Source: Ceratodon purpureus | Taxonomy: Eukaryota; Streptophyta; Bryopsida; Pseudoditrichales; Ditrichaceae | Direction: 5' to 3' | NCBI GenBank assembly: GCA_014871385.1 | Contig: CM026423.1 | Coordinates: 4,530,408 to 4,594,407, forward strand | DNA: 64,000 bases | Shown here: positions 21,275-44,420 of the stretch, in pieces | Position numbering within the stretch: the stretch's first letter is position 1 | How the letters are laid out: each line of letters begins with the position of its first letter | Notes under the pieces: generated by a model | Databases searched by the model: none | The model's input: the letters and a program-made list of their open reading frames with translations, nothing else | Told to the model about the DNA's origin: nothing | Translations under genes and position numbers: made by a program

Positions 21275-22694
21275 GCACCTCCCAGTACCACTGCTGCACC
21301 CTCCTGACTCTGGTGTTAAGGGAACTCAATTGACTTTGGAGTAAAACAAATTAAGTTAACTGCTAATCACCTCATGCTGTTGTGCCATAATTTCTTGTAT
21401 CCTTTTGTGTAAAGAATGGTACAAAACCTATTCAGCATGTGCTGTGCCATCTCTCTGTGAATTCGGCTACTTGTGTCATCAGAGCGAGATGCGCACCACA
21501 TCAGTGGCCAGCTTGTGAATTGTCATGGATTTGATGGAGTGTGCGATGGATCCTCGAAATTGGATCTGATGCAGCATGAGACAGCACAGTTCGGGTGCTG
21601 CTGACGGATTGTTTGGGATTCTGGGTTTTACAGCCTGGTCTTTCAGAGCCAAGCTACTCGTAAAGCTGGGCATAAGCATGGCCATGGCGAAAGCCATATA
21701 CACATGTGCTTGTGTCCTTGAGCGATCCAATTGTGTCATGGGAAAACGTCGTCGACAGCGAGTGCCAGCACCTTCAATAATGATTCTGAGCAACACTGCA
21801 GTCTCTCGTTCTTGTGTTAGTGGGCGTTGTGCCACTTAGAGAATGAGGAAGTGAAGAAATTTTTTCTGCTTGTGGAGTTTATCTCCCACCTTGCCAATCG
21901 ATTTCAAAGTCTAAGGCAGCCCTGGCGCTAGGCGAAGGACCTTGGTTATCAGCGAAGCGATGTTATGGATGCCCCAAGTGATGTAAGAGATGCGCAAAAC
22001 TGCAAATGGATTACTCAGCTTGAAATGACGAAGACAAGTACATAAGCAGGCAACCATTGGTCCAATGAGGTCACTTGAAACAACTGAATCAAAACAACAA
22101 GCTCTGATGCAGTAAGCAATAACAGGGGGACAGGAAACCCCAAATTTTTGATATCATATGTTACTAGTGGGCATATAGGGTCTGAGCTAGCAGTACTTGA
22201 ATCTTGCTCATCGCTCGCAAGATCAGCACAGCTTCGATATGGTCCCTGTTTTGACATAATTTCCTCCACATTCAGAACTCTGGAGACGACGCAGGAGCAG
22301 TTTGTGTGCAAGTCTCTGCTGCCGGCTAGGATACATACGGCCTTGATCTAGAGCTGATTCATCTTCCAGCACAAGTATGCCAAGAACATCTCTCTAAAGT
22401 TCATACAAGTGAAGAACCGCAGAAGTACATGCCAACTTCACCCCACCAAATGTTGCAAGTCCAGCTGAACACAGGGACTCCAGGACACTATAAGAAAAGC
22501 AGACATCACCTGTTTCTTATGTTGGTGATCAAACAATAAGGAAACCTCTACAGCAGTGAACATCCATTCCATGATCGATTAAGCCGCACGATAGACCTGC
22601 ACACAGACATTATCCACATCATTCACAACCTGTGCAAGCCGCTGGAAACAATATTGTGAGCAGGAATAAACTGAAGTCAGCTATCTAGTTACTT
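21275..22694 (+). repeat. Tandem array unit 2, left part
   Basis: This repeats the EPL1 last codons and 3' UTR (GCACCTCCCAGTACCA onward) and the following non-coding DNA of unit 1. The EPL1 stop codon is still recognisable, but there is no upstream coding sequence, so it is an exon-end fragment. The unit is cut by the CACTA element after the CTT at 22692-22694 and resumes at 44421. Confidence 0.85.
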
Positions 22695-22725
22695 CACTAC
22701 TAGCAAACTGGTCGTTTTTCATTCC
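22695..22725 (+). repeat. Left terminal inverted repeat of the CACTA element
   Basis: CACTA at the very end is followed by ten bases that differ from the other end. The block GGTCGTTTTTCATT at 22710-22723 then matches the right end inverted at the same distance from the terminus. The flanking CTT lies at 22692-22694. Confidence 0.9.
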
Positions 22726-23685
22726 TTTGAACGCGGTAAAGTGCCAGGGTTCCGTTGACGAGGCTGAACATTTGCTTGAAATAGCATGTAAGCTACCGGG
22801 TCCGCGAGAAGCTCTTCTGTGACCAATCAGGTGCATCCTCTGTGCGGGGCATCGCCTAATGCTTCGGGGGTGGGCCTGCGATCCCTGTATTCTATCTGAT
22901 AACTGCCGATGGGAAGGTGAAATCAAGATGGTGTGGTTAAAGTGCCCCTCGAAGATCCTGCTCCATCCCTGGGCTGTAACCGCGACCAATTAAGACCTCA
23001 TTTTTTTCCTAAGTGTCAAGGGAAGTGAACGTTGAGGTCCCGCGTTCAGGGTGTTTAGGTTATGCTGTTGCAACGTGTGATTTGTATTCCAATTCTGTTG
23101 CATACATCAAATACGTCAAATACATTCCGAACTTTACCTCTTCGCATACACCAAATACACCCTGAATTTAACACATCAAATACATTCAAAACTCGACCTC
23201 TTTGTAACACCAAATACACACTGAACTTGATCATGTATTAAACAAAGAGATACAACTGGATTCAGAGTTAGAAGGCCCTGTGAATCTCGTACATGAACAA
23301 GTTGTTTTACAATGAAGAAAGGTAGGCTTCAAATCTGTCTGGATTTAACATAGTCTGAGAATGCATATTGCTGTTCCTCTCTCGGTATCCAGTGGCTTCG
23401 CAGGTAATGCTTCGAACTGTTTATGTACACATCGGCTAACTCCTGTGGGTGGGGGGGGGGGGGGGGGGGGGGGGCTGTTGAAGGCCTACTCCAATATCTA
23501 GTATTCAAAAAGGAAAACTACAAAACGAGGACCGTTCGCTGGAAGTGTTCATCAGGTTTACGGTTTCATCACATGTCCCAAACTACGAACTCTACGGATG
23601 ACTATTTCAGAGATACGAAATTGATTTTCAATGCGGCCCTCTGTCACATAGTGCCGCTGTTCCTTCGCCAGACGTCGTTCTTTCT
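22726..23685. repeat. Left subterminal region with internal repeats
   Basis: Two imperfect copies of a repeat of about 65 bp lie at roughly 23104-23236. Each contains TCAAATACATTC, then ACCTCTT, then ACACCAAATACAC and then a CTGAA motif. Subterminal repeats in CACTA elements are binding sites for the TNPA-type protein, so these are candidates (inference). A run of 24 G residues lies at 23451-23474. No gene is seen. Confidence 0.5.
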
Positions 23686-25796
23686 TCATTCGGAGTCGTC
23701 GTCTGTTAGCACAATGAATTCAGCTCCGCAGGTACATGGAACACTCGTCATCTCCTCGCCATCAGGCCGCGGCACGTCATCTCCTGTGCAAAACGAATAG
23801 CATAAGTACTGGCATTGTGAAAATGTTTTATCAATAATGCACCGTCACAGGATTGCACACCCTTTCCATACTAGAGGGGGAGTCAGTTCTTACCTGGGAT
23901 GGACAAAGGGATGTTCCGTTTCAGGAGAGGAGAGAACGGTGGCGTTGAGGTGCCCCCCTCCTCTATGGTGAACTGCTCCATCACATAGTCTTCCGCATAT
24001 TCTGGAGCAGGGTTACGGTGAGCTTCGGAAATGGCGACGCCCTTCATTTTCGATAGAGCGTACTGACAATTCTGTCTGCTGAACGGTGATTTCGTAGCGG
24101 TTTGCGGAGGGACTGATCCATCCTTGTTTCCTGTCTCTGCAACTTTCTCCACATCCGGATGGAGAAATCTCTTCTCTGCTATCTCCTGTAAGGTGCCATC
24201 GTCCTGGACCTTCCGCTTTCCAAGGAATTTCGAAGATGATCCACTAGCAGGGGGCTCGGAGCAGTACTCGTAGAAGCACGTCTTCCCCAGCCAGTGCTCT
24301 GTAAAATTACCCTTCCGAACCGGTGAATAATCGCCAGAAATGGCTTCGGCATTATCCTGTCCATTAGTCGGGGTTGATGGCGATTTCGGTGATTGCGTCC
24401 CAGGGGATCCTATGTGACACACAACAGACCCTCGGTTATTCCCAAAACAATTGCACAATCCTCACTTCACAGAATTCATTGCACATTCCAGAATGTTTAC
24501 ATTCAACGCTCTACATTCCGCAATCCACACCCCAGAAACCACGTTACTATCGCCATCACGATGCCAACAGCATGGGTAATGGAATTGGCTTACCCTCGCG
24601 GTCATTGCGTTGAGGAGAGGCAGGTGGATACTCAGAATCGCTGGATGGTGTGAGCTGGAGGCGTCTTGCCTTGGTCTCCCTCTTGTTTTTCGCCTTCTCA
24701 TCTGCCGTGATACATGACGAGTGACAAGCTTTTCAGTTGATATGGAACCGGGTGATAACAGAATGGACTTCAGACAAATAACGGAATTCATTTTTGGTTT
24801 AGGGAGAGGTACTTACGTTTTGGGCGAGACTCTGTGGCGAGGTACTCGCGGTCATTGCGCTGAGGAGGGGCAGGTGGATACTCAGAATCGCTGGATGGCG
24901 TGAGGTGGAGGCGTCTTGCCTTGGTCTCCCTCTTGTTTTCCGCCTTCTCATCTGCCGTGATACAGGACAGGTGAGAAGCATTTCAGTTGAGATGGAACCG
25001 GGTGATAACATGATGGACTGAAGACAAATAACGTAATTCATTTTTGGTTTAGGGAGAGGTACTTACGTTTTGGGCGAGACTCTGTGGCAATCACTGGATG
25101 GCGGTTTAGGGGAGGATTGGAGGGAGCAGGGTTGGCGGCTGGCTCCTCAGATGTTGCGGTGGTGTTCTTCTTCCACAGCGGCCGTTCCGCAACTGTCGGC
25201 GGGGGGGGCTGTAGAAAGCGGATGAGATTAGGCGAGTTCGCCCGCGTGAACTTCCTCGCATTCCGGTTTATCTCCCAGTCGTCTGGGGCCCCTTCCAGCT
25301 CGTCCAGGCCCTCTGCAGATACTTCGTTTGGGGGCCACTTAGCCTCCCCTCTCTCGCATTTTGCCCGCAGGTCTTCGAATGACTCGAATGGCAGGGTAAG
25401 TTTTTTGCCCCTTCGACATTGCTTCATGGCGAAACCGGCCCAATCCACGGCGTAGCCGAACATCTCCGCGATAAGACCTCGAGCGAATGCCAACCCAAAA
25501 GCCTTGACCGCTCCAATAGGACGCTGGTGCGTCTTCTGGTAAAGGATTTCGATGTTCCTCTGCATTCTCGGGCTCTCGCATCTGCCTGGGCGATCATACC
25601 TGAATCTCCCCCCTTCCATCGGGCCCCAACGGTCGATGCAGTGTTTGACGGAGGCGACAGTGTGTGGCATGTACCCTGGTTCTCCTTCCCGGATTCCAGG
25701 AATGTATCCAATGTCATTAAGTCCCTGGTCCCTACGTAACCAGTTCTTGGTGCCCTTGATCGGCACGCGGTAAGTCTCTTCGCGGAGGGATGCCAT
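23686..25796 (-). CDS. Transposon accessory protein of unknown function (528 aa)
   Basis: Five exons assemble in frame with GT-AG borders: 25067-25796, 24817-24951, 24594-24701, 23894-24409 and 23686-23783. The start is the ATG giving MASLREETYRVPIKGTKNW. The N-terminal 240 residues look like a folded domain, with motifs NDIGYIPGIREGEPGY, CIDRWGPMEGG and AVKAFGLAFARGLIAEMF. A Pro-rich linker follows. A repeated basic/Ser segment (ENKRETKARRLHLTPSSDSE) is encoded by two duplicated exons. The C-terminus is acidic and ends with CTCGAEF and VLTDDDSE. No known family is recognised. The frame may have non-coding leader exons up to about 26600, since donors occur near 26055 and 26540. It lies downstream of the captured exons on the same strand, at the left end of the element. 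Confidence 0.6.
24597..25088 (-). repeat. Tandem duplication of a 249-bp exon-intron unit
   Basis: 24597-24845 and 24846-25088 are near-identical copies, each covering an exon, its flanking splice sites and intron of the accessory gene. Both copies keep the reading frame, since the exon is a multiple of three. The duplicated segment encodes the EKAENKRETKARRLHLTPSS-type stretch twice. Only a few substitutions separate the copies, so the duplication is recent. Confidence 0.85.
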
Positions 25797-27352
25797 TGTG
25801 GACAACCTGCACTGAATTCCCAAAGACAATACATTAGAAAGGGAAGTTGTCCTCGTGAATTGGCAAGCTACATTGGGTGAACAGTAAGTGACAATGGAGT
25901 TTTGCAAATCACGGTAATGGAAGCCGTCTGCTGCACAAATGAATAGTCGTTGCACGCAAACTACGACTGGCAACTACGAAGTGGCTCAATTACTGAGGAA
26001 ATCAGGATTGAGGGGGGTTTTAGCTAGGGTTTAGAGTAGACATGTTACTTACCGGGTGGGCAGTCCTGTGCACACGTCTCTGAGAGGGCTGTTAGGTTTG
26101 CAGTGTCGGGTGCTCCACAGATGCCTGCTTCAGAACACTGAACACGGGCATGGATTAGCCGACAGAAAATAAAGCAAAGCAAGCCTCCAAATGCAACCTC
26201 TCCCTGTTCAGACAACCCTAATCCAACCCAAATAACCCAAAACACAAACCTACTCCCAAAGGCACCAAATTACAGAAGCAACTATCAACTCCCGAACTAA
26301 CACCTAAATTTATCAGAACAAGCTTAGGGTTCGCCATTGCCTCCTACTCCCTCCTAAACCCCCCTCAATCCTGATAGACGACGAGAAATAAGCACGGTTT
26401 ACGGAATGAACGTGCGGGACATGGCCATGGCGGGACAGAATTGCAGAGTCACTAGAGATACAGAGTTGCAGCAATAGAAATGCGAGAGAGAGAGAGGGGG
26501 GGTTTGGAGAAGGGAAGAACCAAGGATGCATAGAACGAACCTGTGCTCGGAATATACGAGTCGAGGGTGTCCAGAACTGGAGGGTTACAGCTCCGAGGGG
26601 TGATCGGGGGTATGGCAACGGCGCTAACAGGAGCAGGCGTCTACGCAGTCGCGAGAGCAGCTCCGACCGCCATCTCTACAGGAACAGGATCGGGAAACGA
26701 GGGCAACTCCCATGCGCAGCTGGGGTTTTTGTAGTGCCTGGGAAGGTGGCGCCCGGGAAGACGAAGATGGGTGTGATTCGTGACAACATCGTGGTGCTCT
26801 AGTTTTAGGGTTTGCAGTAGCCCACTATCGAGGCACAACCGCGTGATTCGATGGGTGTGGTGTTTCGTGGCCTGAATCAGATGCAGGCTGCCAATCCCAT
26901 CAACCGATCCTCTTTGGCATTACTCTCGAAAGACATCCCATCAGATGGAGCTCAGTAATCATGAAGTGTACACCAGAGTCCACGAAGGGTAATGAAGACA
27001 TTGAGGTGAATGGCCATGTAATGCGAGACGTATGCTTCAGATGATGAGAAGTTTGAGACTCATTTCATGTATTGTTGGAAGGGATTGATAAGAGAGTTGA
27101 AGAGGTCACTCATCTGATAATGTAGTTCGTGGGGGAGATGTGACAGGTGCTGAAGCGTATTCCACCAACAGTTGGAGATATTGACTCTGACATTACAGAG
27201 GGCCCCTGAACCGTTAGCAAAGTAGTTGGCACTATGTAGGTGCTGGAACGCCCTGACAACCCACACGAACAAGTTGTCAGAGATGGTATTAATTTACATT
27301 CTAAGTGATTGTATTTTACAGGTGATTTATAGATCTGTTTGTAAGTACTCAC
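25797..27352. other. Leader region of the accessory gene; no clear gene
   Basis: The minus strand shows candidate 5' leader exons of the accessory gene, with splice donors near 26055 and 26540 and an acceptor near 25812. Short frames lack start codons in context and show no domain. 26600-27270 may include further captured or transposon DNA, but nothing is recognisable. Confidence 0.4.
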
Positions 27353-29260
27353 ATGATGGAGGGCCAATATAGAGAAGATGGCTTCCACAGCTCCCGCTGC
27401 TCCCAGCAAGTGCCCGGTGGCGCCCTGTGCCACCAAACAACATTCAATCCCAGAACAAGATACATCTAGATGACATTACAAAATTTACTCGAGAATCATC
27501 AACCATTCTCGAGGTATGTAGGACTTTTGGGCCTAGGTAGTTTGAGAAGTGGAGTATTTCCTACAGCCTTGATTTAGGACTCTCTGAAGTGCCCCCAGGT
27601 AGGATTATCACCTTTCCCCTCACTTCACGTTGGCTCACCATTGCGAAGGCTTTGTTCACCTGCAGAAGAGGGTAGCATTCATGTTAGTGAGGTATTACAA
27701 ACAACAAGAATGGCATGCGTGTACTCAGAATCATTTGCTAGCATAATACATTCACCAGCCGAGAGGTATGAATAATGTAATGCCAGCAACAAACATCTTA
27801 ACAATGTGGATTGCAAGAGGTTGGACAAAGTAACACATACATTCTTTAAAATGCAGGAACAGAATATGCCAAAGCATCACGTTACAAACTTTGAGAGTAA
27901 TGGGTCGAATATCCAGGCAAAGCATACCTCAGTGAGCGAGAATGTGTGAGAGATGTGAACGCGCAAGCTGCCATTTGTCAACATTTCAAGCAATCCTTGC
28001 ATAGAGTCTTGCATCACTTTAGGGTTGAAAGTTTTGTAGCTTCCCCAGTACAAGCCATGAACGGTCAGATTCTGCAAAGAACACGATGGACTTTCAAAAT
28101 CAATGTTACAGCGTGGATTTTCATAGTACATAAAATTGGCCGAATGGATCTTAACTTCGGAACCCAAAGCTAGAAACAAACCAAAAAATAAGATCCTCAG
28201 TTCAGTTATAAGCATGACTTTACAAGAGCAATCTACAAAACACCATAGGATTACCAAAAAACTCACCTTGACGAGTAGAATATTAGCAGGGATGCTGGGA
28301 ATTTCCCCAGTGGTAAACCCAATGACCAAGATCTTTGCACCCCAGCTCAGCAGCTTCATGCTGTCTTTGAAAAGCTTGCCACCCACTGGATCATAAAGTA
28401 CATCAACGCCTCTAAGCTTCCTGGATTTCAAGAATGCTTTCACAGTGTTGATCAGTCCACCATCAGTCGGGTCCACAACAAGATCAGCTCCAAGCGTTCG
28501 AAGCAACTCTGCTTTCTCCTGCCCCCTCTTCACAAGAAAATCCATGTAAAGACTTAATGCACATCTGTGAAACACCGCATGTCTTAGCAAAGAAGAGCTT
28601 CTAAAGAGCACTTGATTATGCTACGAACACTAGACTGAAATCTAAAGATGAGAAAATAATGCAGAAATACAATATTGACAATACAAGGAGGACCTCAACA
28701 ATACTACGAATTACCTGGCCACACCAATTACAACTGCACCTAACAGCTTGCCAATCTGCACAGCGGAAGAACCAACACCCCCGGCTGTTTTAAAAAACGC
28801 ACCTAAGGGGGTTGATGTGGCGTGTGCATTACTGTAATGTACATCGTCAGGTCGAAGTCCTGCCTGCCCCAGGTGCCCATCAGAACGTATACTTGACATG
28901 GATGATAAATGATGCGAGAATTTCGGAAACATAAATCCAAGAATTACATTATTTCACTGATATAGTGTTCACATGTAAGAATTAAGACAAACCTGTTGCA
29001 GAGCGCGACTCATGGCCAAATATGCACCTCTCCCCTCTTGCGATGGTTGGGTAATATGGTGTGCATCTCCTGCATCCATTACATTAGACAGGTTAACTAA
29101 TCCCTCAGAAATGATTACAAACAGATATTAAGGATGTGTGGTTAATAAAATGGAGCTGAAGAGCTACAAAGAGAACGCACCCAAAGGTACCCACCTGACA
29201 TGCCATAACCTCGTACTTCTGCATAGATCTTTGCTCCTCTGTCTAATGCATGTTGTAACA
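27353..29260 (-). CDS. Captured chimeric exons: KAS fragment, quinone-oxidoreductase-like fragment, KAS fragment
   Basis: Seven exons join in one open frame. KAS exons 29195-29260, 28993-29069 and the first part of 28715-28863 encode GAKIYAEVRGYGMSG, DAHHITQP, SRALQQ and the NAHATSTPLG motif. Dehydrogenase exons follow: the rest of 28715-28863, then 28267-28525, 27928-28071 and 27639-27659. They encode TAGGVGSSAVQIGKLLGAVV, GVDVLYDPVGGKLF, SWGAKILVIGFTTGEIPSIP and LTVHGLYWGSYK. Exon 27353-27424 then returns to KAS with GATGHLLGAAGAVEAIFSIL. KAS enzymes elongate fatty acids on ACP. The second part is the NAD(P)-binding half of a medium-chain quinone oxidoreductase. Two KAS catalytic His motifs remain, but no Cys active-site exon is seen. 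The first exon's start is uncertain and no ATG is assigned. The exons lie inside the CACTA element on the tnp2 strand. Confidence 0.8.
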
Positions 29261-29561
29261 CTTGCCAAACAATGCTGACATTATCAGCGTCAGAGCAAAC
29301 AGTTTAGTTCTATTTCGGGAGAGGATAGTAACGTTATTGGGTGAAAGAATGTACTTATTGCCAAGCAATACATTATGAGGAATGTAAGTTTAAAAAAAAA
29401 CCAGAATAGCCATTGCATTGGAGTCGAAGACAAAAAGGAACAATCACCACTGCAATTGATCAAATGTCGCTGAATTGATGAAAAAAAAAAAACCATCTAT
29501 GACTTCAACAGTCGAATGGGATTTTCAAAATACATACGTAGACAAGTGAGTGAAACAGTAC

Positions 29562-29686
29562 CTGTACATATAGAACTGATCTCTTTGTTTCATGTTGCAG
29601 AAGGCCACACACCAGGACTGGGTTTGTCTTGTACGAGTTCAGGAGCGGTTCGACTATAGATGCAGAGACTTGAAGAATATCTAATC
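29562..29686 (-). CDS. Possible further captured exon of unknown origin
   Basis: A minus-strand stretch bordered by an acceptor (TTTACAG) and a donor (GTACTG) is open in one frame. It encodes about 41 residues including SIVEPLLNSYKTNPVLVCG and HETKRSVLYVQ. It does not look like KAS or the dehydrogenase. It may be an exon of a third host gene captured with them, or unrelated DNA. Confidence 0.3.
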
Positions 29687-29699
29687 CTGTAAAGCACCC

Positions 29700-30800
29700 A
29701 CTAGACCAAACACTATGAAGAGAGTAATGATGAAAACTGTTAGAGCAGTTCCCGAATAAGGAATAAAGATCCCAAGATTACTGAGAGGGCGCTAATCATG
29801 TACTGGAATGCCAAAACAATATTAAATCGACAGCAATAAAACAACCATATGGATGTCGCAAGGTAAGGAATACATGACTAAGTATAGGCCACACGTAAAT
29901 GATTACTAAACAAACTATACAAACCAGTATAGAAGACACGGTTCCTGAACTGAGACATACGAATTCAAACATCCATCCAAGTTGTTCTCATGATGGAGTA
30001 TATGAAGCAACTCACTATAAACAACTTATGGTCAGTATTGAATGACTAACTCAAATTCCAATTCCGCAAACTAAGACCCCTGCAATAGCATCAAGAGAAT
30101 GAACAAATTGTCCGTCGGAACACTGTACTGACATTATCACAAACAACCTACTTATCACCAAGATACGGTGACTTAATGCATTATGGATTGAAGTGTCCTT
30201 TACTTAGCTAAAACCGCCGTTGCTAACACAAGACCTAAGACCTGGACGCGGCCAAATTAACGGTGACGCAGTTGGGTTCAATATATCCGATTTTGAGTTA
30301 GGACTTGATACTCAAATGTAAAACAGGGTAAAAGACGTGTACTTCAACACTCAAGTAAATCCACTCGAAATAAACCTCCTGCCTAGGCTACACATCACAG
30401 CCATTGGTGACGGACTGTGGCCGCATATATACCAGCAGATACAGATACACGGATATCAGGTTCCTACACAGGTACACAATAACCGGGCTGAACCATACCC
30501 GCAGGAAATTGTAATCACATGTCTACAGAGGTCAAGAGAACACGATGCAATACTGATGATTATACACCATAATTACTCCAACACACGTGAAGTGATATAT
30601 GTTAGCAATTTAAGTAAGAAACTCCAAAGAAAGGTTAGCCCTTTCAGAGAAAGGTACCTGCTGAATCTGTTGGTGTTCACTGACTGGAACCTGTTCATAC
30701 GACATGTTAAAAGCATTAACGTAGTACATGATCTGATACCTTTGAGAGTTATTAACCTGGGAAAAGAAGAGTGGGAATGTGATGGGCCGCAATAGAGGAA
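29700..30800. other. Non-coding transposon DNA between captured exons and tnp2
   Basis: No gene is supported. A 152-codon plus-strand frame (30337-30795) overlaps the expected 3' side of the tnp2 gene and has no recognisable domain. The region probably contains the 3' UTR of tnp2 on the minus strand. Confidence 0.45.
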
Positions 30801-30812
30801 TGAGGTCCTCTA

Positions 30813-33800
30813 TCAGAGGTCCATTCCCACTGTCGGGTCCGCTGCTACGGCTTCCGTATTTCCATCCATGATGTCGTCGAAGTCATTATCGGAGCCCACT
30901 TCGTCTACTTCCTCCATGTCCGCGTCGGCGTTTTCGTGGTACTCCTCTTCTCGGTGTGCAGAAACCTGTTCGACGTCAGCAGCCAGTATAGGTTCAGCAT
31001 CAACCTCGACTCTGTCCCCTGCGTGTCGCGCAATCCTGTCCGGGAGGAATGTTGTGGCGTCTATATGCCCTGCAGCTGATAACGTTTCTGTATCGCTGTC
31101 TGAAATAACCCGCTTTGATCTGGGTTCCTTATGCCTAACCACCTTCCACCCAGCTTCGAGCACGTCATCTACGAAATACACCTGCAACGAAGTAACAGGT
31201 CAGGCAAGAACTTGCAGTAGTTGGAACTTAGATCACGACATAAACGCCATATTCAGAGCACTTGCCTGTTGCACGTGTTTTGGCAAAATGTAGGGTTCCA
31301 CATCCGCGGGCTGCCGTGCATCGTACTTGACGGACCAGAACCCGTGATCATCTTTCCTCATCGTCTGTGCCCCCTCCAGGTCTGGCCGTATCCAGGAACA
31401 TCTCAACACCACGTACTCATGGATTCCATAGTCCACAAGCAAGATGTCCTTAATAATACCAACATATGTTAATTCGGCCTCGATCGGATGCAGATCAGCG
31501 CGGGATGACCGACAGTCCTGTGTGATGATCGCAGCCACTCCTGCGTCGAATGAAACGTTACTTCGGCCATCCTCATCGTCGGCACGCAAGTGATACCCAA
31601 ACGCCCACATCGACGTGTAATGCTTAACTGTCGGAGAGGGAAGTCTTGACATGGTCTCCAGAGATAGGGTGATGTCCTCACCAGCGGCAGCCATTTCCCG
31701 AACTCGGTCTCGTATCCAGGTAGTAAATGGAGGGAACGGACGACCCCTTCTATTACCGCGCTGGAGCAACCTCTCTTTGTACTGCCTGAACATTGCATGC
31801 GGTTCAGGTGAGAGCCGTAAACATCCAATACTGTAAATGCTCGGGGGGTTATACAGTGCATAGCGGAGATGTCCAGACGCCATCTCATGGATGCGTTTTC
31901 AGCGCAAATAGATGCGGGGACATGAGAGTCACATCAACTGCGATGCATGGGGAAACTCAAACGAGTCCCAGACTGACTGTAACTTTGGCATAGGAAACTT
32001 ACTCGTACAGTGGCTCCGTCAGGATGTTGTGGCGGATAATGAAGTCATGTAATGCGAGGATCTCTGCGTCTCCCAATTGGCTCTCGCGGGGGCGTCCTTC
32101 CAGCACTTCTCCTGAATCTCGGATGTCCTCATCCATGTCCCAAATGACACGGGCCGACCCGGGATAAAGACGGAAGTGCTCCGTCACAAAACCCAAGGCT
32201 TCTTCGTACATGTAACCCATCGCGATCGAACCCTCTGGACGCGCCTTGTTCCGAACAAGGGTCTTTAGATGTCCAAGGTATCTCTCCACGCCGTACATCC
32301 ACCTAGCATGAACTGGACCGCACCAGTACAGCTCTCTGGGTATGTGGAGAACTAGATGTGGCATCGTGTTCCAATATCCGGGAGGGAAATAGATCTCAAG
32401 GAGCGATGCTGTCTCTGCCACGTAGTTCTGTAAGTCCTCGACTTCTCGTCGGTCAATTGCCTTCTCACAAAAACGTTTGAAGCAGTGAGCCAACCTAATG
32501 ATGGCCACTCGAGGCCCCTCTGCTAAGGATCCCCGTATAGCTGCGGGCAGGATCTCCTGGAGGAGTATATGCCAATCATGGCTCTTCATGAACTGCATCT
32601 TCCCTTTCTCCAGACTCACTAGCTTATCAAAATTACCACAATGACCAGAAGGTGTTTGGACTGCTTTAATAGTCTCTAGAACCTTCGCTTTCTCCTCAGG
32701 ATGAAGCACGTAGGGGGCATGGGGTTTAAGGTAGTTGTCACTTGTACCTTGTCGAACGAGGTGGATGTCAGGCATGACACCTTGCTCTTGGGCATCTTTC
32801 CGCACCGCAATGGTGTCATTCTCACCTAACAAAAATCCCATGGTCGTAGCGGCGACGTTCTTCTCTATATGCATTAAGTCTAGTGTATGCCTGACGGGAA
32901 GAGCCTGCGCACCACTCCAGTTCAGTATCGTTAGTTCAGTGACATTTCAGATATCCACATTCATAATCACAAGCATAGAAGCCATTGCCCAGAGTCAATT
33001 ACATGGCACACGCTCGCACTCTCTGCAGTTGTCCAGGATTGATAGATGCTAGGATTATAGCTATGGCTAACTACTATGTTGGAACGAACACCATCCTAGG
33101 CATCATCGCCTCTCTCAATCCTAATGCTACAGGTTCACTTACTGCGGGGTATGGGCAGTGCGGGGTATGGGCATCAGGCATGGGGCATGCATACTGCTTG
33201 GCATGCCCCGAACTTGTCTCTTCGATGTACATATAGGACATCACATTCGGCACATGGCGTTAACGGTACGGGATTAGTGAACGTGTTCCGTTCTCACCTC
33301 CCAATAGGGCAACCGGTACAGCGACGACACTCTTTTGATACCGTGCCGGCGAACTGGGTCGTTTTCGGGAGGGCCCCCTTCCTCTCTGAGCCATCTCTCC
33401 CTCTCTTCCCCCCAGACTTTCACTTGTGCACCAGTCGTCGGTGGAGGCGCGCGCCTGTGCTCCATGTTCGGGAAGTTCGTATTGTCGTTTCTAAGGTGAT
33501 GATCATCATATAACCACCTCCGTGCACAATTGCAGAACACATTCTTGTGGAGGAATTTCGATCGCCTGGAACAAAAACCTTCACCGCACACGGGGCACCC
33601 CACAAACCCCTTCGTAACACAGCCAGCTAGTATGCCATATGCAGGGAAGTCGCCAATTGTCCATATCACCATGGCTTTCATCAAGAAGTGGGAAGAACCC
33701 TTGTAACATGCTGCGTCCATACAGTACACTCCATAATTCCATAAGTCAAGGAGTTCATCAATGAGAGGCTCCAAGTAAACATCGAAGTGCTCAGAGGTCA

Positions 33801-35332
33801 CGGACTTCGGACCTGGAATTAGGATAGCTAGCATCATAAAATACTTCTTCATAGTTAGCCATGGCGGAATGTTGTAATTCAATAGTAACACGGGCCAAAG
33901 AGAATATACACTCCTTTTGTCGCCGCTGGGGTTGATCCCGTCCGTAACTAGCGCCAAACGGACATTGCGATCTTCGTAGCCAAACTCCCTCCTGAACCGC
34001 TCGTTGATGAACTCCCACTGTTTGGCTTGCGAAACATGCCTCATTATGTTACCGTCGAACTCCTGCATTGCGTGCCAGGTCATGGCACAGGCTTGCTCAA
34101 CACTGCGAAACACTCTCTTCAGTCTCGGGGTTACCGGGAAGTACCTCGCAACTTTTTGGGAAACATTCGACTTCCCAACCCGCTTCCTCCTGGGCGCTCT
34201 ACACTTGGGACAGGTAGTCGCTGCGGCCAATGCATTTCGAAAGAGGACGCAGCTATTGGGACAGGCGTCTATGCTCTGATAGGAGTGTGCCAACCTCTTG
34301 AGATACTCAGATGCCTCACGGTATGACTTCGGCAGGGAGTTCGGTGTTGGCAGAATCGTCATACTAAGGGTGCGGAACAATTCATCCAGGTACGTATCTG
34401 TGCACTTGTGCAGCCTAGCGGAACTCATGAGCAAGTACGTTGCGCCCATACTTGAATGTTCCGATTCAGCAAACAGCGGGGTGGCTGCTGCCTCCTCCAA
34501 CGCCTGCAAGCCATCGTCGGCCTCGTCGTCACTCTCTCCCCAAGTAACATCTTCTTCATCCGATGAGTCCGGGTCGGAGTCGGGCAATGGTGGACGGTCT
34601 GGCGAGTTTGCATCGACGTGGTACTCCGCTTCCATGGGTACGATGACGTCGTGGTCTTGCGAGGCGGGTACCCCATCGGGCTCTACATGCGGGCCACGGT
34701 CAGGCGATTGCGACGCACGAGGACGGCTTTCGACGGGAGCAGAGTCGGAATTGGTTGGAGGGCTTCTCGGGGGAGAAACGGGCACTTCCGGCGCAGCATT
34801 GTTCAGGGTCTCCGCGTGAATACGGTCTGCTCTGTCCAGTGTCTGAATTAGCATCTCCTGGAGATCCATTCCGGGGTCCATCCCTCCGGGACGAGCTGGA
34901 CGGGCACGCTCCACAGCTTGGGCTCCGTAATACCAATTTATGTGATCATCCCATTCGGTGTCGCTGTCGTCCGGTTCGACACCCTACGAGCCCACAGTAC
35001 CCTAGTCACCGACTAATCCACTCTTGCCATGCTGTGCGATGACATCAAATCCTGAAACCCTCCCCTATGCGATGAAACCCTCCCTTACGCTACAAGGATC
35101 TTACCTCCAAACTGCCGAAGAACCACGGATGCCTTCCATTCGCAGTAACGCATCTCCTGTAAGATGTTAAGATCTTCTCGGAGTGTTGCTCACGCATACA
35201 CAACCTGCACGGGCATGGTAGCTTCCGCCGTCCATGGTCGTTGGCATATTGGAGCTCCCGGCGGAGCAGTTTCTCCTCTCGAGCCCTAACACGCCTGGGG
35301 TCGGGCATCCGTCGGCGTATTCCCTCGTCCAT
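30813..35332 (-). CDS. tnp2-type CACTA transposase (TNPD-like)
   Basis: This is the catalytic transposase of the CACTA superfamily. Five exons give about 1249 residues: 35105-35332, 33298-34983, 32003-32904, 31266-31830 and 30813-31181. Exon 1 resembles the transposon-associated domain, with the Cys motif CPCRLCMREQHSEKIL. Exon 2 has an acidic linker and then the tnp2 domain: LVTDGINPSGDKRSVYSLWP, LLDLWNYGVYCMDA, and a Cys cluster in GFVGCPVCGEGFC. Exon 3 starts LPVRHTLDLMHIEKNVAAT and carries the DUF4218-like part (FPPGYWNTMPHLVLHIPREL, GVERYLGHLK). Exon 4 has the DUF4216-like part (YVGIIKDILLVDYG, EYVVLRCSWI). Exon 5 is an acidic tail. Intron 4 has a GC donor (GCAAGT). No internal stop interrupts the assembled frame, so it could be active. 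Confidence 0.9.
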
Positions 35333-35802
35333 TGAGCCCTAAATCCCTGCACTGCACCAAACCTCTGTCAATGACTCCTGGTGTTACCTATTACGACCAA
35401 TCCTCTCCTATGTGCAAACCACCTCAATTGACCTCCGCTGGGGTTGCAAGACCCCCGCGAACGCTCTAGGAGAGACAACGCTGCCTGACCCTATTCACCC
35501 GCGAACGTATCATTCCGGATAGGGCAATCCACGTTGCAATGAGAAGATGACTCCGCGACTGTGACGGCAAGCACATCGTGGACATGGACTGCGGACAATC
35601 ATGTAGACGAAGACGTGTTTATTGAGTGCATAAAAACATACAGTCCAGGATCCATTGATCCAACTGCTGGAGCAACTCTATGATGACCCAGATTTGGACG
35701 CTCCTACAGACTACTTGATGGGTCGATGACGGAATACAATGATTAGACGTATCCACTCACTCCTCATTAGGGTTCCGCGAAGCCCTCTCCCCTCTATCAA
35801 TA

Positions 35803-36630
35803 CTAATATTGCGAGAGTACTCGTTCCTGATTAGGAGAGGAGTTACAGTGTTCCTCCCCGAGTTGTCGCTCGGGTGAGCATTGCGCACTGGCGGAGGCAT
35901 TGAGCTTTCGCTTCAACCCCGACGATGATGCAGTATCCGCGGTCTCGACGTTAGGTTGCAGGTCTTGAGCGACCCCGTCGAGAGGGCCGACGCCATCTCC
36001 CCCCACAGGGGACCCGGGGAAAGGCACGGTATTACCAGGGGACGGGATTTGTACCGCGGTGGACCACGTCCCCGTCCACGGGTCATACCCGCGCGGAGGG
36101 AACTTCCACCCGTTCCTGAGCATCCTCTCAATAATCTCCCTGGCCCATGGAGCGAGCTCGGACGGGTCTCCCAACGAAACCTCTGGGCTCTCACCCTCGC
36201 TGTCAGCATACGGAATGTCGTATTCAATTTTCGTTTGCGGGCTGCTGGCCTCTTCATTGGGATCCCACTCCTGAGTTGGAAGTAGTAATAAGCACCTGCA
36301 CACCGACTCCTCTACAGGGGGCCGCGGCTCAGGTTCACATCGACATTTTTTCCACTTTTGCCGCATCGCGTCGTCTAGAGTTAGAGAGTATTCCCAGTGC
36401 TTACCCAGGAGACAATTGCATTTAGGGTTCTGTAACCATTTCATTCTGCAACACGAAATGCAGTCGCAATACTCTCCGCACGCATGAAATGGACCCTGAT
36501 GCCCAAGCTCGTATTCCCTGATTACTGTCTCCAACCAACTAGGCTGACCCCCAAATCTATCTGACCTTTTGGACCACACCCCAAACTCACGTTGATAGGT
36601 CAAGCCCCGTAGCGCCATAGCCACCCACAT
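35803..36630 (-). CDS. Cys-rich transposon accessory protein, unknown
   Basis: The minus-strand frame from the ATG at 36630 to 35803 encodes about 275 residues. The frame is open further upstream, and a separate open stretch at 36663-36923 may be an earlier exon, so the start is uncertain. The N-terminal half has closely spaced Cys residues (ACGEYCDCISCCRMKW, NPKCNCLLGKHW, KKCRCEP, ESVCRCLLLLP) that suggest a metal-binding domain. The C-terminal half is Pro/Gly/Ser-rich and probably disordered. It lies upstream of tnp2 on the same strand. No family is recognised, and a DNA-binding role would be an inference. Confidence 0.45.
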   Translation of the reverse strand: MWVAMALRGLTYQREFGVWSKRSDRFGGQPSWLETVIREYELGHQGPFHACGEYCDCISCCRMKWLQNPKCNCLLGKHWEYSLTLDDAMRQKWKKCRCEPEPRPPVEESVCRCLLLLPTQEWDPNEEASSPQTKIEYDIPYADSEGESPEVSLGDPSELAPWAREIIERMLRNGWKFPPRGYDPWTGTWSTAVQIPSPGNTVPFPGSPVGGDGVGPLDGVAQDLQPNVETADTASSSGLKRKLNASASAQCSPERQLGEEHCNSSPNQERVLSQY

Positions 36631-37502
36631 AAACAGAACCCAATACGAGGACAAAAGAGAAACTATGCATCAGCCACACAGTCGAGTTCAAGTAGAATTA
36701 CCGAAACCAAGTTTGCAGTCGTGATGGCCTCTTCGCAGTGCTCCCCTGCCCAAGTGTCCACGCTCGTCTGGTACTCCACAGCCCTTCTTCCCTCCACCCA
36801 GCAAGGGGCTGATGCCAGGATATTATCTGCGAATGGGTGTTCATTCCAGACTTGTGAAGCCCATTCCACAGTAGCGGACAAGGAGGTGAGCTCTCTTCTC
36901 GATGCTTTGTCCAAATTTAGCAATGTCAGTTATCTCATTCATTTGCAAAAGACAGAATGCCAGGCCCGGAATCTCCCCAGAGGACAGAATGGTTGTCATG
37001 CTCGGTTGCGGTACTCAGAGGAAGGAGGTGGGCGTTGCACACGTCTCGGATTCCTGGCCCTCTCACAGCGTTCCCAATGCGCCATACTCTTGGAGACTTC
37101 GACCTGGACCATTCAATGAAGGCACTGTCTCCCCGCCGTAGCTCGAGACGCCTCCCTCTTCGGTCTAGGTGGCTTAATTTGGCCTCGCATCTTCAAGGGC
37201 CGTCAGGTCACTGCTCTTATCTTTAATTTTGTTGGCGATTCTTGGACGTAGTGGCAGGATGTACGTAGTGGCTCGATGGCCGCCTTACCCACCACACAAT
37301 GCGACCCCAGTCCTCCATGTATCGGAAGGCGCCGTAGGGTTTCAAGAACTCCTTCCATTTCCGGGCGCTTTGTACTTCGACCAAGTTCCAGAGGTACTAT
37401 CTCCTTCCAACCTGCTCCCTACCTGATTGTTGTTACTATTTGTCCACACTCCCTTCCTTCTCCAACCTTGATGTGCGTTAGATCCCCCATTTCTCTCGCG
37501 TC

Positions 37503-37886
37503 ATGTCGAAGGAAACAGCGGAGCATGTCTGGAAGGTCTTAATGGAAGTAGACAGCGACGGGGAGCCAATCGAGAGGGCGCTATGGCACAGCAGGCAGAG
37601 GGTGGTCTCGGCTCCTGAAAGAGCTGCGACTGGATTTCTGGATGATCTACCCCTAGAAATTGCCCGCTCCATATGGAATCGCATAATGAGCGATGGCACC
37701 GTGTACACGAGCTTTCTGCACTGCTCCCTCATCCGCGCCGTCTGCAAGTCGTGGAAGCGGCATGTCGACGCCCAGCCGGAATGGACGCAGGGCATGCGTG
37801 CCTGGTTTCGATATTGCTTTAACGAGGAATCTGAAAGCGACGAGGAGTGGGTCGACGTTGAGGCCCGGCGCAGATTCCATAGATAA
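37503..37886 (+). CDS. Small F-box-like protein inside the transposon
   Basis: A single plus-strand frame of 127 codons begins MSKETAEHVWKVLMEV. The motif FLDDLPLEIARSIWNRIM, followed about 15 residues later by LIRAVCKSWKRHV, has the spacing and key residues of an F-box (LP-E----IW, then R-VC--W). F-box proteins recruit substrates to SCF ubiquitin ligases. The protein ends in an acidic segment (EESESDEEW) without a typical substrate-binding repeat domain. A similar domain forms the last exon of the neighbouring Transposase_24-like gene, so the two are probably related copies. The F-box call is from pattern only. Confidence 0.5.
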   Translation: MSKETAEHVWKVLMEVDSDGEPIERALWHSRQRVVSAPERAATGFLDDLPLEIARSIWNRIMSDGTVYTSFLHCSLIRAVCKSWKRHVDAQPEWTQGMRAWFRYCFNEESESDEEWVDVEARRRFHR

Positions 37887-38267
37887 GGGTGTTGAGCATG
37901 CCATACGTAGAATAGGATTGTAGGAAGTCCACATCGTTGAGATGAACTGAAGACATAGTTCCATCTCTGATCAGACGATGCTTGCTCGTCGTACTCCACT
38001 GCCTCGCTTCGACTTAGTCACCCATCATCTCCAGAGTCCGAGATAGGTTGTGCGGATGTAACTTCCTTGTTTTCAATGAAATATAAGTCTGTCTCAAAAC
38101 TCAGAGGGCCACATTTTCGATATCTACTTGTATCTCCAATTTGATTTGGTTGTTCTTTGTTTGATCAATATGACACGTTGACAATGTGATAATGGAACAT
38201 AGAATCAGATGCACTCAGTGATCAACTTTCACAATTTCTGCCGACGCAGGTAGTACCGTATACCACA

Positions 38268-40863
38268 ATGTCGGGGGGAGCGGATTCAGGAGGCACCCCA
38301 TCCAGCTCTCCAGAGCCCGTTCAGACGTCTGGACATGGCCCCAGAAACGGCCAGTCTCAGGTAAGTCCATCAAACCTTTAAAGTATCTGTATTTTGGTGC
38401 ACCGTGTTCCACATGAGCAATTTCATAACCCAAAACGTCCCTTCAGTAATACAGACCATAACTACTTTGTCAAATACCACACACAATTAGGCATCACTTG
38501 TCCATTGCTATACATGCTTTCTCATTTGCTATGTCCTGCGCAGACTGTCAGCAACCCAGGGATGACGTTCTTACCCCCATACCCCCAGCGACCTCTGTAT
38601 ATGCAGCCATGGGCTAACCATGTCCTATACGGGGACGGTGTCCCTGAAACCATTAGCGGGGTTAACCCATTGCAATACATGTTCCAAGGGTTTCCTCAGC
38701 CCCCCATGAACCAACACCAGCAGGACCCCGGATCGCCACAGGTGCAAGGTCGTTCGCAGGGCGTGTCACCACGAACGAGAGCACCCTCTCCAATCAGCCA
38801 ACGCTCGATGAATCCTGGGCAACAATCAATGGGATCCCCTGGTTACGTCCACACCCGGCAACATGCCGGCTTGACATTCCCGACTTCAAGTTCGCTCTCT
38901 CAAGGGAGCAGTAGCGCCAACAGCATGGCGTCGACAGCGATGGCCGGAATGCATGCTTCTCTGTCAAAGGCCTTCTTGTACGACATGCTCCAGCAAGGGC
39001 GCGCCCACGCAGCAGCGCCAACCTTCCAGGGCACTCCAGAGTGGCCGGCCTGGGGAAACGGGACTCCTACTACGCCCTTGCATGTGGTTGCACCCGCCCC
39101 CTCTCAAGCCATCCCCCCTGCTCCAGTTCCCACAGCTGTCCCGACTATACGGAACAACGCTGGACCAGAAGGCACAGATTCGGAGAATAGAGTTGTCCAA
39201 TGCCCTGAATCGACACGCACGCGGCAGAGGAGGCTCCAAAAGCAAGCGAAGACGTCATTCAAGAAGAAGGGGGCAGAGTGGCCCATGAAGATCCCGACTA
39301 CAGCAGACGGGGAAATTGGAGAAGGATATCGGGTTTTTGTGCATAGAGTCATGCGAGCCACGGCTCGTCGGTTCCTGGACGTATCAGTTATATCCTTCAA
39401 AGACCACCCTCCGAAACAAGTGAAGATCGTGACTGACATACTAGGGCAACAATACAAATTCGAGCCGCCACTTTACGATGGCTACATACTGTGGTACCTT
39501 GAGGACTCCATGCGGACCTGTCGATACCAATGGCGGAAATACTGGATCAAAACTGGGAGAGGTCAGAAGCACCCTCAATGTCCAGGAGAAGCATTCCCGG
39601 CATTGGCAAAATACTGGGTGACGTTCGAGGCGAAGGAGGAGGCCAAAAAGATAAAACGTGAGCGACTGGAAGCCAGGGCGGCAAAAATGAAGCTGATTAC
39701 AGAAGGCCAACTGACTCCGTCTATCAGCGAAGACACATGGGAGGTAAGAGAGTTGTATTCGTAATCCTCAACATCTGCATTTTGCATTTCATGTTTTTTT
39801 CACTCTCTGGTTTCCAGAGTGCACGCTCCCTAAGCCTCTCTGTCTTAACACTATCAAACGTAAACCGTAGGCATCACTCAAGGAATCAAACAATTGAACT
39901 TCACGATCAGATACTATGCACGTGAATCTTTTCTTTGCAGGCATTGACAGACGAGGAGGATCACGAGTCCATGTTGTGGGACGACATCGACACATTCGAT
40001 GACGAAACAGAACCTGTTAGCGAGTCCATCGCCAACAACGACCTCCAACCACAGGTACGTTTGCAACTATAACACATCAAATGAGAATCCAAGCCACTGT
40101 AACCCCCGATCCTGTACGCCCCCTGCACTTCAATGCTCGGCAAGAGGAGAAGATGATGCGCCATCTCACTATTGGACTCCGTTGCGACATGGCTGTACGA
40201 CTCTTCCAGTTCCAATTCCCGACGTCGAGGTGTCATTGGTATAACAGCGTGGACGGCTATGGCCTAGTAGAACTGCGTTGCATAGTCTTGTTACCATCCC
40301 CACACGTATTCAATGGAGAATGGTTGTAGTCAGCTGCAGACTGTAGTCATGTGTCCACGTCGAACCAATCCTCGTATTCGGAATTGTTTCAGGCTACGGG
40401 ACTCTTATCATCCCGACTGAAGGCTCTTGACCTCGGCCGTGTCGCTGAATTCCCCGTACCCAACCAACCGCAACCGACTGGGCGAGTCAGCCATGACGAG
40501 CGGCGTTCACTCCCGCTGCGCCACACAAATGACACACAGTCAGAATCCGATCGAACAGATGGAGTGCTTCAGGATGATTGTGCCGATTCGCAGAACGATA
40601 TCCAATGCCAGACTGAGTTGGACTTCTCTTTCATTAGGAGACTACCGGCAGAGTTGTCACTACCAGTGATTTGGGCACGGGTTATTGCTGATTGCCAAAC
40701 GGGGGCAGCCAAGTTCAGGACTATTGCCACTTTCAGATCCGTTTGTGCAGAGTGGAGGCTGTGGGTGGAGTGTACTCCTGAGTTCAGAGACTATTGGGAA
40801 TCGTGGGTGGACAACCAAGCCCATGAGGACTTCGCCCGAGGGAACTTTGGATACTTTATTTGA
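38268..40863 (+). CDS. Transposase_24-like (TNPA-like) protein with a C-terminal F-box-like exon
   Basis: Four exons join in phase 0: 38268-38360, 38544-39743, 39941-40054 and 40393-40863, giving 625 residues. The start MSGGADSGGTPSSSPEP leads a long Pro/Gln/Ser-rich region. A conserved block follows, with AEWPMKIPTTADGEIGEGYR, RVMRATARRFLDVSV, FEPPLYDGYILWYLEDSMRT and YQWRKYW. A basic helical region (EAKEEAKKIKRERLEARAAK) comes next. This matches the layout of plant Ptta/En/Spm proteins (Transposase_24), the DNA-binding partners of tnp2. The last exon has LPAELSLPVIWARVI and TFRSVCAEWRLWVE, an F-box-like pattern close to that at 37503. A stop follows at 40861-40863. The fusion rests on matching splice sites at 40054 and 40393 and could be alternative splicing. 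Confidence 0.65.
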
Positions 40864-41196
40864 GGCCTCAGTGCCAGCGCTGACCCTAGCACCCACTCGT
40901 GAATGAAATCCGTTAACCCCCAAAAACCATTATTCCCCACTTAAAATAATCACTACGGGACCATGAACTAAGCTCCCCGCAACCGAGATATAGTAGATAT
41001 TGATACTGAGTCGTTGCTTGACGTTCGGCCCTAAACCAATAAATCCGGTTCCCATGTAGTACTCGCTGAAGTGCTTTATAGTCAGGCCTCAATTTGATTT
41101 CGCATTCTGTTATGAAGATGGTGGCTGTATTCTAGTGCCTACCTAGTATAACTCATGCTCCTGACCAGAATCTGAAGCACGCTGTTCATTGCACAG

Positions 41197-43237
41197 GTAG
41201 GGACATCTAGCACCCCACCACCTCGCAAGTTCACTGCGTCACCTCTTCCGGTGAGTCTCTCTCTGGTGGATAATGTGATGTGCACATTGATTTTAGTATT
41301 CTAAGGGCTGTCACTTCTGCTTAACCGACGTCTCATTTTTTATTCGCTGCAACGTGCCCGACCTTTAGCTACCCGATCGGAGCGACGCTGTTGGATGCCA
41401 GTCAGTAATAGACGAAGCAGGAGAGAAGATAATTACATCGAGTGGAGTGAACCGTTTGGTTGGGCGGGAGTTGCAGTTTGTGAAGACCTCAATCCAAGGC
41501 ATAAGCGACTGGCGCTGCGAAGTGGACAAAAAGCTTTCAGAAACGGCTTCGGACTTGTCATCCTTGAACTCTGACCTGTCATCTATGAGTAAGAAAATAG
41601 ACCTGCTCCTACGACTGCAGATGTCCGGGACACGATCTCCCGCACCTGGATCGATTGATGTCGGAGGACTTCCTACCTCTGCACATGGCGATACGACCAA
41701 AGAGACAATGAACGATCAGACAATCTCGGATGGACCTCAGGTAATGAAGTCCGGAGAGAGAACGTGCTCAGCGTCTGGCGTCTCGCACGAAACGCGTTTC
41801 GTCGACACTGCAACATGCGATGCAAGTGGGTACCCTCAACACTGAAACAGTGTCTTCCTGTTAACATTAAAAATTACACCAAGTCCCCGTCATCCGTCAC
41901 GTGCTTATTAACAACGTCGGAGATGCAGATGGCGGCGCGGAGTCAAATGTCAATGCCCGCAATGCCGACGTTAGCACCGTCGGCGGTGGAGGACGTAGGC
42001 CTCCCCCTAAGTCGTTAGCGCTATCCTCGAAAAAGAAGGCACCTACGTAGAGAGCTTCCTCGTCCGAGCAGATTATTCACGGTCCAGCCAGTACAGTAGT
42101 GGATGGGTTGACCATACCCGGCGAGGCGTCGAACACTGTCACACACACAACCCAGTCCCCTTCTGCGATGGAGATCGCATTTGGATCATACAACGATGTT
42201 AACCTACGGACGCAGAAGAGGGCGGCACCTACTAACGGTATGCTCCTTCACCACATGCGCAGGGGACGCGCTCACAGATTGAACTGACTCGTGGTAGGAA
42301 GACGGAGGCAACCGGTAGCACATCTATCATCGTTTATTCCGTTATTGTAATTGATGTCAACGGCACATTGTTGTGACAGATGAAACGACAGACGCTGATG
42401 GTTTGCGGAAAAGGCCGCGGTGCGACCCCGAGCAAGGTATGAGGCCTTCATAACCCCAAGATCGTAATTCTGTATAGGTTGTAACTGAGTCCGGTGTACT
42501 CCGGCTTCTTATGTGACAATTGATTCCTTGTAACAGATTCTACCCCAGAACCTTTAGCGGTTCCTCAACGGAGTCAGCAACCGAAGAGTACGAGCAGCAC
42601 ACCTCTGAAATCGCACCCTCCACCTCTCCCGGATAACGTTAGTATGACAAGACAGAGACCAGGCAAACGCGTCTCCAAACGGCCCTCCAGGTATTTGGAT
42701 CATGCTCCACCCGAAGAAAATAAGCCTCGAAGTGACAAGGTACGTTCTTATATTCCACGTTTCAATGACCCCATGTCTGTATTGAAATCACAGTTGTAGC
42801 CATTGCAACAGCGCAAATGATGAACATGTTTGAAGTAGGTCATTCCAGGTAGTGTACTTACAGTCCAGTTACTGACATGTGTGCACTTGACATTTCAACA
42901 GCAAGGACCACTACATCCCAAGAGATACGTTTGGATAATGCATCCGGATCACGTGAACGAGACAATCGCCATCGGTCGCAGTGGCCCGCATTGGAAAAAC
43001 CAGAAAGCGAAACTGGCTTCAAATGGACCAGGTGTGCCATGGGAAGCCCGAATGCAACAAGTGACAATTGACTACGTATATCCTCAATGGACGGGGGTGG
43101 TCCCCATGTACCCAGAGCTGCAACGGGAGGGCATACAGACCATGGGGGACATTGCAAACGCGGCTTTCGACGAAGACAGCACCCTCATCTGGAGGACAAA
43201 CTACCTCAAATACATTGTGTTGGACAAGATAAACTAA
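41197..43237 (+). CDS. TNP1/Transposase_23-like reading frame of the CACTA element
   Basis: Several plus-strand exons are visible. 41197-41250 encodes VGTSSTPPPRKFTASPLP. 41369-41740 includes SDLSSMSKKIDLLLRL, a possible coiled coil. Less certain exons lie near 41920-42045, 42385-42435 and 42538-42739 (KRVSKRPSRYLDHAPP). The final exon, about 42902-43237, ends in a stop after VLDKIN. It has KRYVWIMHPDHVNETIAIG, then VTIDYVYPQWTGVVPMYPE, then GIQTMGDIANAAFDEDSTL and WR. That order resembles the C-terminal Transposase_23 (TNP1/EN/SPM) domain of TNPA-type proteins. It may be the downstream part of the same transcription unit as 38268-40863 through alternative splicing, as known for En/Spm. The middle exons are tentative. 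Confidence 0.5.
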
Positions 43238-44388: not shown

Positions 44389-44420
44389 GGTAATGAAAAA
44401 CGACCCGTATTCTTCTAGTG
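44389..44420 (-). repeat. Right terminal inverted repeat of the CACTA element
   Basis: AATGAAAAACGACC at 44392-44405 is the complement of the left-end block. The terminus ends TAGTG. The duplicated CTT follows at 44421-44423. Confidence 0.9.

Follow-up and report, generated by a model that had tools for sequence, protein, structure and literature searches.

By what route does a DNA transposon come to hold exons of two unlinked host genes in a single open reading frame, and does such a frame announce a new gene? The question is raised by a locus of the moss Ceratodon purpureus, analysed here in a window of 64,000 nucleotides (the whole stretch of DNA under analysis, C3:4530408-4594407) and by searches of the 362.5 Mb genome (151 contigs). 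A sequence-only reading of this window had described exons of a 3-oxoacyl-ACP synthase (KAS) flanking exons of a quinone oxidoreductase (QOR) inside a CACTA transposon. It had proposed that the chimera, credited with an open frame, compatible phases across KAS-QOR-KAS and all of its splice sites, could be a new gene in the making.

The transposon is a complete element of 21,726 bp (22695-44420) whose tnp2 gene lies on the minus strand. Its 29-nt terminal inverted repeats are 83% complementary and both start with CACTA: the left one, CACTACTAGC, occupies positions 22695-22723 of the plus strand and the right one (44392-44420, minus strand) reads CACTAGAAG inwards. They are bracketed by a target-site duplication CTT (22692-22694 and 44421-44423). 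The element carries a tnp2-type DDE transposase gene, with a Transposase_21 exon (33274-34983, minus strand; Pfam E 2.1e-59) and a transposase-associated DUF4218 exon (31999-32946, minus strand; Pfam E 5.4e-28). These are the features of CACTA (En/Spm) transposons, and the terminal repeats together with the paired CTT confirm that the KAS and QOR exons lie inside such an element. Two further full-length copies were found in the genome (C10:13816725-13838503 and C6:37402505-37422394). Perfect 3-bp target-site duplications flank all three copies (CTT in C3, TCA in C10 and CAA in C6); the right end of the C6 copy reads CACTGG. Identity to the C3 element, gaps counted, is 96.6-99.7% for the C10 copy (seven blocks) and 93.4-97.8% for the C6 copy (six blocks).

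The long ORFs 38382-39764 (plus strand) and 25038-25973 (minus strand), candidates for the second, tnpA-like gene of CACTA elements, have no Pfam match, and the Rfam search of the window gave no match at gathering scores. Pfam searches of both strands of 36000-44420 found no captured domain, with a single sub-threshold match to DUF6358 (0.032); elsewhere in the element the searches covered the complete minus strand of 22695-31000 and the long ORFs of 31000-36000. A 177-aa ORF inside the element (40330-40863, plus strand) is somewhat F-box-like by eye and has no Pfam match, while the ORF 59945-60412 (minus strand), outside the element, resembles by eye a malate dehydrogenase N-terminus. Segments 24595-24838 and 24845-25088 (244 bp each) match the same sequences of the C6 copy (cross-matches 92-93%) and two matches to the C10 copy overlap by 244 bp at 24595-25088; this region is probably a near-tandem duplication.

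The captured exons are all read from the minus strand. Those of KAS are Ka (29258-29195), Kb (29069-28993), Kc (28863-28803), Kd (27424-27353) and Ke, which starts at 27252; those of QOR are 28784-28715, 28525-28267, 28071-27928 and 27659-27561. The best PDB match of the spliced KAS translation is 1w0i (E 6.5e-27), with a Pfam match to Ketoacyl-synt_C (3.1e-15), and the spliced QOR translation matches PDB entry 4eye (E 2.2e-25) and Pfam ADH_zinc_N (3.7e-24). By these similarities the two sets of exons are assigned to a 3-oxoacyl-ACP synthase and a zinc-type quinone oxidoreductase, and the flanking of QOR by KAS exons, as given in the sequence-only reading, is confirmed.

Relatives of both parents are present in the same genome. 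When this was queried with the 1,908-bp segment, the best candidates were five places, the window itself included. The others were the C10 element (99%, full length), C5:3040245-3041499 (95%, QOR) and two stretches of a KAS locus, C1:6499273-6499740 and C1:6499978-6500162 (99%), the match to the latter extending to 6500281. The insert is composed, in the order of the minus strand, of a KAS 5' piece with truncated Ka, Kb and Kc (28792-29259; C1:6499273-6499740, 98.5-99%), a filler of 4 nt, AAAA, recognised by comparison with both donors (28788-28791), a QOR piece with four exons (27536-28787; the C5 match) and a KAS 3' piece with Kd and truncated Ke (27234-27537; C1:6499978-6500281, 98%). The element thus passes from KAS to QOR and to KAS again, with one KAS exon replaced: 237 bp of C1, including the exon encoding DVVEARAIRDVFKDHAQSGHLAFSSTK, are missing between the two KAS pieces. 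The C1 and C5 loci look like ordinary host genes because domains of both halves of each enzyme are found there (pieces of the KAS N- and C-terminal domains on C1; ADH_N, 5.1e-11, and ADH_zinc_N on C5, by Pfam). The possibility that a parental gene itself had the chimeric exon order was examined, and neither the C1 nor the C5 gene has it. Capture of host exons from two unlinked genes is upheld by these close matches, and a chance arrangement is ruled out since close relatives of both parents exist in the genome and the same arrangement recurs in a second element copy. Capture through spliced RNA was rejected because the KAS and QOR pieces retain introns and because of where the skips of another captured piece, fragment A, lie (see below). 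The stretches compared of the C1 and C5 donor loci have no match to other parts of the element; one gave a weak match to window positions 57024-57204, outside the element. QOR is further from its C5 relative than KAS is from its donor (26/670 versus 7/477 non-exon sites, p = 0.019), so the true QOR donor may have been another allele or an intermediate copy rather than the C5 gene itself.

The four joins were compared with the donors, whose exon edges were read by eye. At the outer join KAS begins two to three bases inside its exon, and Ka therefore has no acceptor. At the KAS/QOR join, 11 nt of the next KAS intron are followed by AAAA and then by QOR coding sequence. QOR is entered inside its coding sequence (the parent has VLLVLGAAGGVG, the element AGGVG alone after the join) and its first exon has lost both acceptor and start. 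The QOR piece ends a few dozen bases past its stop and shares the dinucleotide CC with the KAS intron that follows, and Ke is cut within its coding sequence. Microhomology at the joins is of 0-2 nt, a length that could be due to chance.

The C6 copy has no insert. At the insertion point it reads GGCAAG-TGA-AGTGCC, where the C3 and C10 elements carry 2,027 bp, and no KAS or QOR trace was found at this C6 site, where no base requires either source. C10 contains both of the 30-nt junction strings, C6 neither. No target-site duplication was found around the insert, which therefore did not arrive by ordinary transposon insertion. Between C3 and C10 the insert shows 14 differences over 2,027 sites and no indels (99.3% identity). 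That the arrangement is an assembly chimera is scarcely credible: the same joins are shared by two elements that lie on separate contigs and differ in their flanks and target-site duplications, and an assembly error was rejected on the strength of the C10 element. Extremely unlikely, too, is an origin in which neighbouring elements lost complementary ends and enclosed the host DNA between them, a mechanism given for Arabidopsis Pack-CACTA according to a 2026 review (PMC13317346). The model fits poorly because a complete element is interrupted at one point by unlinked genes: apart from the insert, the element is contiguous with C6 on both sides, and the insert has its sources on C1 and C5, the piece of one gene being nested in that of the other. 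The contiguity of the C6 element across the insertion point led us to reject the hybrid origin.

We infer that C6 preserves the state before capture, i.e., that the insert was gained after the C6 copy had split off rather than lost from it. Divergence, computed on mismatches only, gives a mixed argument for gain. The non-exon KAS sequence differs from its donor at 7/477 sites (1.5%), fewer than separate C3 and C6 in two zones flanking the insert (89/2333, 3.8%; p = 0.008), but the C3-C6 divergence over all six backbone blocks is 2.5%, not significantly above the 1.5% of KAS (p = 0.18), a result with which a loss in C6 would also be compatible.

The reading frame is shorter than had been thought. 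It runs through Ka, Kb, Kc, an 18-nt stretch and the four QOR exons to the QOR stop TAG (27561-27563, minus strand), and is open over 263 codons plus stop in both C3 and C10. One continuous KAS-QOR-KAS frame was rejected, contrary to the earlier reading, because this stop precedes Kd and the later KAS exon. Skipping of the last QOR exon would put QOR and Kd in phase, but translation would end shortly afterwards at a stop in Ke. Retention of all splice sites also failed to hold, as three exon edges are lost (the acceptors of Ka and of the first QOR exon are missing, the latter together with the start, and Ke is cut in its coding sequence). The apparent intron between KAS and QOR (28802-28785) is 18 nt long, shorter than a plant intron can be. 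It is in frame and is made of the KAS intron remnant, the filler and QOR coding sequence, and was therefore rejected as a real intron and taken as junction debris. Five native introns retain donor and acceptor, and the fused exon 28863-28715 retains the KAS acceptor and the QOR donor. In the unspliced sequence there is no in-frame ATG before Ka, the first in-frame Met being that of GYGMSG, and in C3 alone the second QOR exon has had its acceptor CAG changed to GAG. If the frame were transcribed and translated, its product would lack the N-terminal half of KAS, with the catalytic cysteine, and the N-terminal GroES-like domain of QOR, to which the ADH_N match of the C5 locus corresponds.

These features bear directly on the proposal of a chimeric gene, in which the KAS-QOR frame would yield a spliced transcript and a protein of use to the host or the element. 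The frame open in both copies, the five introns with their donors and acceptors and the fused exon with its two splice sites speak for it, and some genes captured by CACTA elements are described as transcribed (PMC1947982; PMC4290129). Against it stand the absence of the first halves of both enzymes, the missing upstream ATG, the altered C3 acceptor and the pattern of substitutions. Since the C3 and C10 copies split, the 599 nonsynonymous sites of the frame have taken 7 changes and the 190 synonymous sites 2, a Ka/Ks of about 1.1 from small counts that matches the expectation without selection (binomial p = 1.0). Exon columns changed no more slowly than non-exon ones (9/865 versus 5/1147, p = 0.17; indel columns set aside). 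The intact frame itself says little, because only 0.36 stops are expected among 9 random changes in it, so that its survival does not call for selection.

The differences from the parents that are common to C3 and C10 tell another story. Within the frame all of them fall in QOR, and of these one is nonsynonymous and seven are synonymous (Ke has two more shared changes, which lie beside a join and outside the frame and were excluded from this count); QOR exon columns were spared among these older differences (8/572 versus 26/670 non-exon columns, p = 0.008). The ratios before (1:7) and after (7:2) capture differ (Fisher p = 0.015). The older differences thus bear the mark of constraint on the gene from which QOR was taken, of which the changes made after the capture give no sign. 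No selection is detectable on the fused frame, although with only 9 changes weak selection is compatible with the data, and the purifying selection expected after fusion of a functional chimeric gene was not found. The proposal of a new gene in the making receives no support from these small counts, and we regard it as very unlikely.

The KAS-QOR insert is not the only foreign DNA in the element: the zone behind the transposase holds another three captured fragments. Fragment A (30362-30700, minus strand) consists of three colinear pieces matching C1 at ~9.753 Mb with 77-85% identity. In its donor region Pfam gave matches to WW (2.6e-5) and RRM (0.0024), neither of which reaches the cut-off. 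Like KAS, it skips parts of its donor in colinear order (~78 and ~780 bp), one skip lying within an apparent, otherwise retained donor intron and the other spanning several exons, as judged by eye. Fragment B (29534-29704, minus strand) is a TSR1/BMS1-type exon (29686-29562) with its flanks and matches C2 at 24.2187 Mb with 80% identity. The C2 locus has a RIBIOP_C match of 1.8e-28 and the element's own exon one of 0.0084; a PDB search with this exon gave no match. Fragments A and B are present in all three element copies and are older.

Patch E (26162-26375), the second recent patch, is shared by C3 and C10; in the C6 element its place is taken by 13 different bases. Its positions 26162-26364 (203 bp) match C6 at ~15.398 Mb with 98.5% identity. 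Its last 20 nt (26356-26375) repeat positions 26001-26020 of the element perfectly in inverted orientation, and 9 of them also belong to the donor match. Both the source and its inverted copy are present in C3 and C10; in C6 the source differs by one base and the patch is absent. The donor of E is adjoined by two diverged copies (78-79%), so it could be a repeat instead of a gene; Pfam identified no family on the plus strand around it. The recognised donor loci thus number five: C1:9.75, C2:24.22, C1:6.50, C5:3.04 and C6:15.40 Mb.

It is very probable, in our judgement, that 27234-29260 is a repair patch in an already complete CACTA element, captured by break repair with template switching. 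A break would have occurred in the non-coding stretch behind the transposase gene and been filled by DNA synthesis that copied part of the C1 KAS gene. The template would then have switched to the 3' half of the QOR gene, that of C5 or a relative, before resuming 237 bp further along the same KAS gene, with short filler and microhomology left at the joins. The patched element would later have transposed to give the C3 and C10 copies, the fused KAS-QOR frame being a by-product. Template-switching repair, in one complex event or two, is the mechanism that we infer because of the order and orientation KAS-QOR-same KAS, the filler, the very short microhomology, the lack of a target-site duplication and the inverted snippet in patch E.

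A sub-case of this explanation is serial capture, in which a KAS patch came first and a later QOR patch in it deleted the 237 bp with one KAS exon. QOR does lie within an otherwise colinear KAS sequence with the missing 237 bp exactly there, and the separate KAS-QOR and E patches indicate a lineage patched more than once. A later QOR should, however, be nearer to its donor than KAS is, and it was found to be further away (95% versus 98-99%); nor was a KAS-only copy present among the five best-scoring places of the genome search. We give this order of events somewhat less than even weight. Whether in one step or two, repair with template switching remains our preferred explanation of the insert.

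All recognised captured pieces sit between the 3' end of the transposase and the next ORF. This confinement need not mean targeted breakage, because captures in coding parts would probably be lost. A sister clade of the element has members at C1:27.59, C8:17.33 and C6:68.16 Mb, whose transposase ends are 90-91% identical to the window over ~1.8 kb. In their zone behind the transposase (about 1.5 kb compared on each side) no match to the window was found. The C1 member (C1:27594292-27595891) is there a mosaic matching C1:15.52, C1:12.30, C1:12.34 and 12.40 Mb as well as weaker places, and the 12.30-Mb piece is present in this one of the three sister members only. Pfam identified no family in the frames scanned from the compared zone parts and two donors. 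The sister-clade pieces would be genomic fragments, possibly repeats, for which the direction of copying is assumed. That in complete elements of this family a tolerant stretch behind the transposase breaks time and again, and is mended by template-switching repair with copies of unlinked host DNA, is a proposal to which we give about an even chance.

Multi-fragment CACTA elements with chimeric frames are already known from soybean (PMC1947982) and wheat (PMC4290129); the record presented here is unusually complete. Tgm-Express1 of soybean (Zabala and Vodkin 2007) is described as a CACTA element of 5.7 kb with five host gene fragments and transcripts detected by RT-PCR (PMC1947982). In both elements CACTA ends enclose pieces, with exons and introns, of host genes unrelated to one another, and chimeric open frames arise; the donor matches of the moss element likewise point to several unrelated host loci. 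The moss element differs in its length of 21.7 kb, in having kept tnp2 and in having a sister copy without insert. For the gene-capturing CACTAs of wheat chromosome 3B, 140 capture events and 17 genes possibly arising from exon shuffling are reported (PMC4290129). Exons of different parents were captured and fused there too, but 19 of the captured genes are given as expressed with dN/dS below 0.4, whereas the frame described here looks neutral. CACTA termini that mobilise host DNA are shared with Arabidopsis Pack-CACTA (Catoni 2019, as cited in PMC13317346 and PMC8903248). Pack-TYPE elements are presented in these sources as non-autonomous and explained by tandem-element hybrids; a Pack-CACTA lacks the transposase gene and has host DNA between halves of two elements, unlike the moss element, in which DNA from unlinked genes lies within a single transposase-bearing transposon.

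A mechanistic parallel comes from animal Pack-TIRs, for which gap filling with template switching and replication-fork switching have been published (PMC8277862). Capture inside a TIR element and breakpoints marked by short microhomology or short de novo insertions are common to both, the present case being distinguished by a plant CACTA element and by two templates in one patch. Among the listed titles and abstract openings of open-licence literature on CACTA gene capture, alone or with mosses, and on capture together with repair, no such case was found.

When a transposon contains a chimeric reading frame that is open and has splice sites, this alone is no evidence of a new gene. Since the stitched frame bears no sign of selection, it is instructive about how transposons acquire host DNA and not about the birth of a gene. 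How DNA transposons acquire pieces of unlinked genes is not settled, and the 2026 review allows that a capture route for unlinked genes may exist, as yet undiscovered (PMC13317346). In C. purpureus a single genome holds an uninserted element (C6), two inserted ones (C3 and C10) and relatives of the donors, so that the joins of the capture, its order and its neutrality can be read directly. If repeated re-patching behind the transposase is indeed a habit of this family, an autonomous CACTA element would shuffle exons continually, and the copies found here would form a before-and-after record of a route by which unlinked genes are captured.
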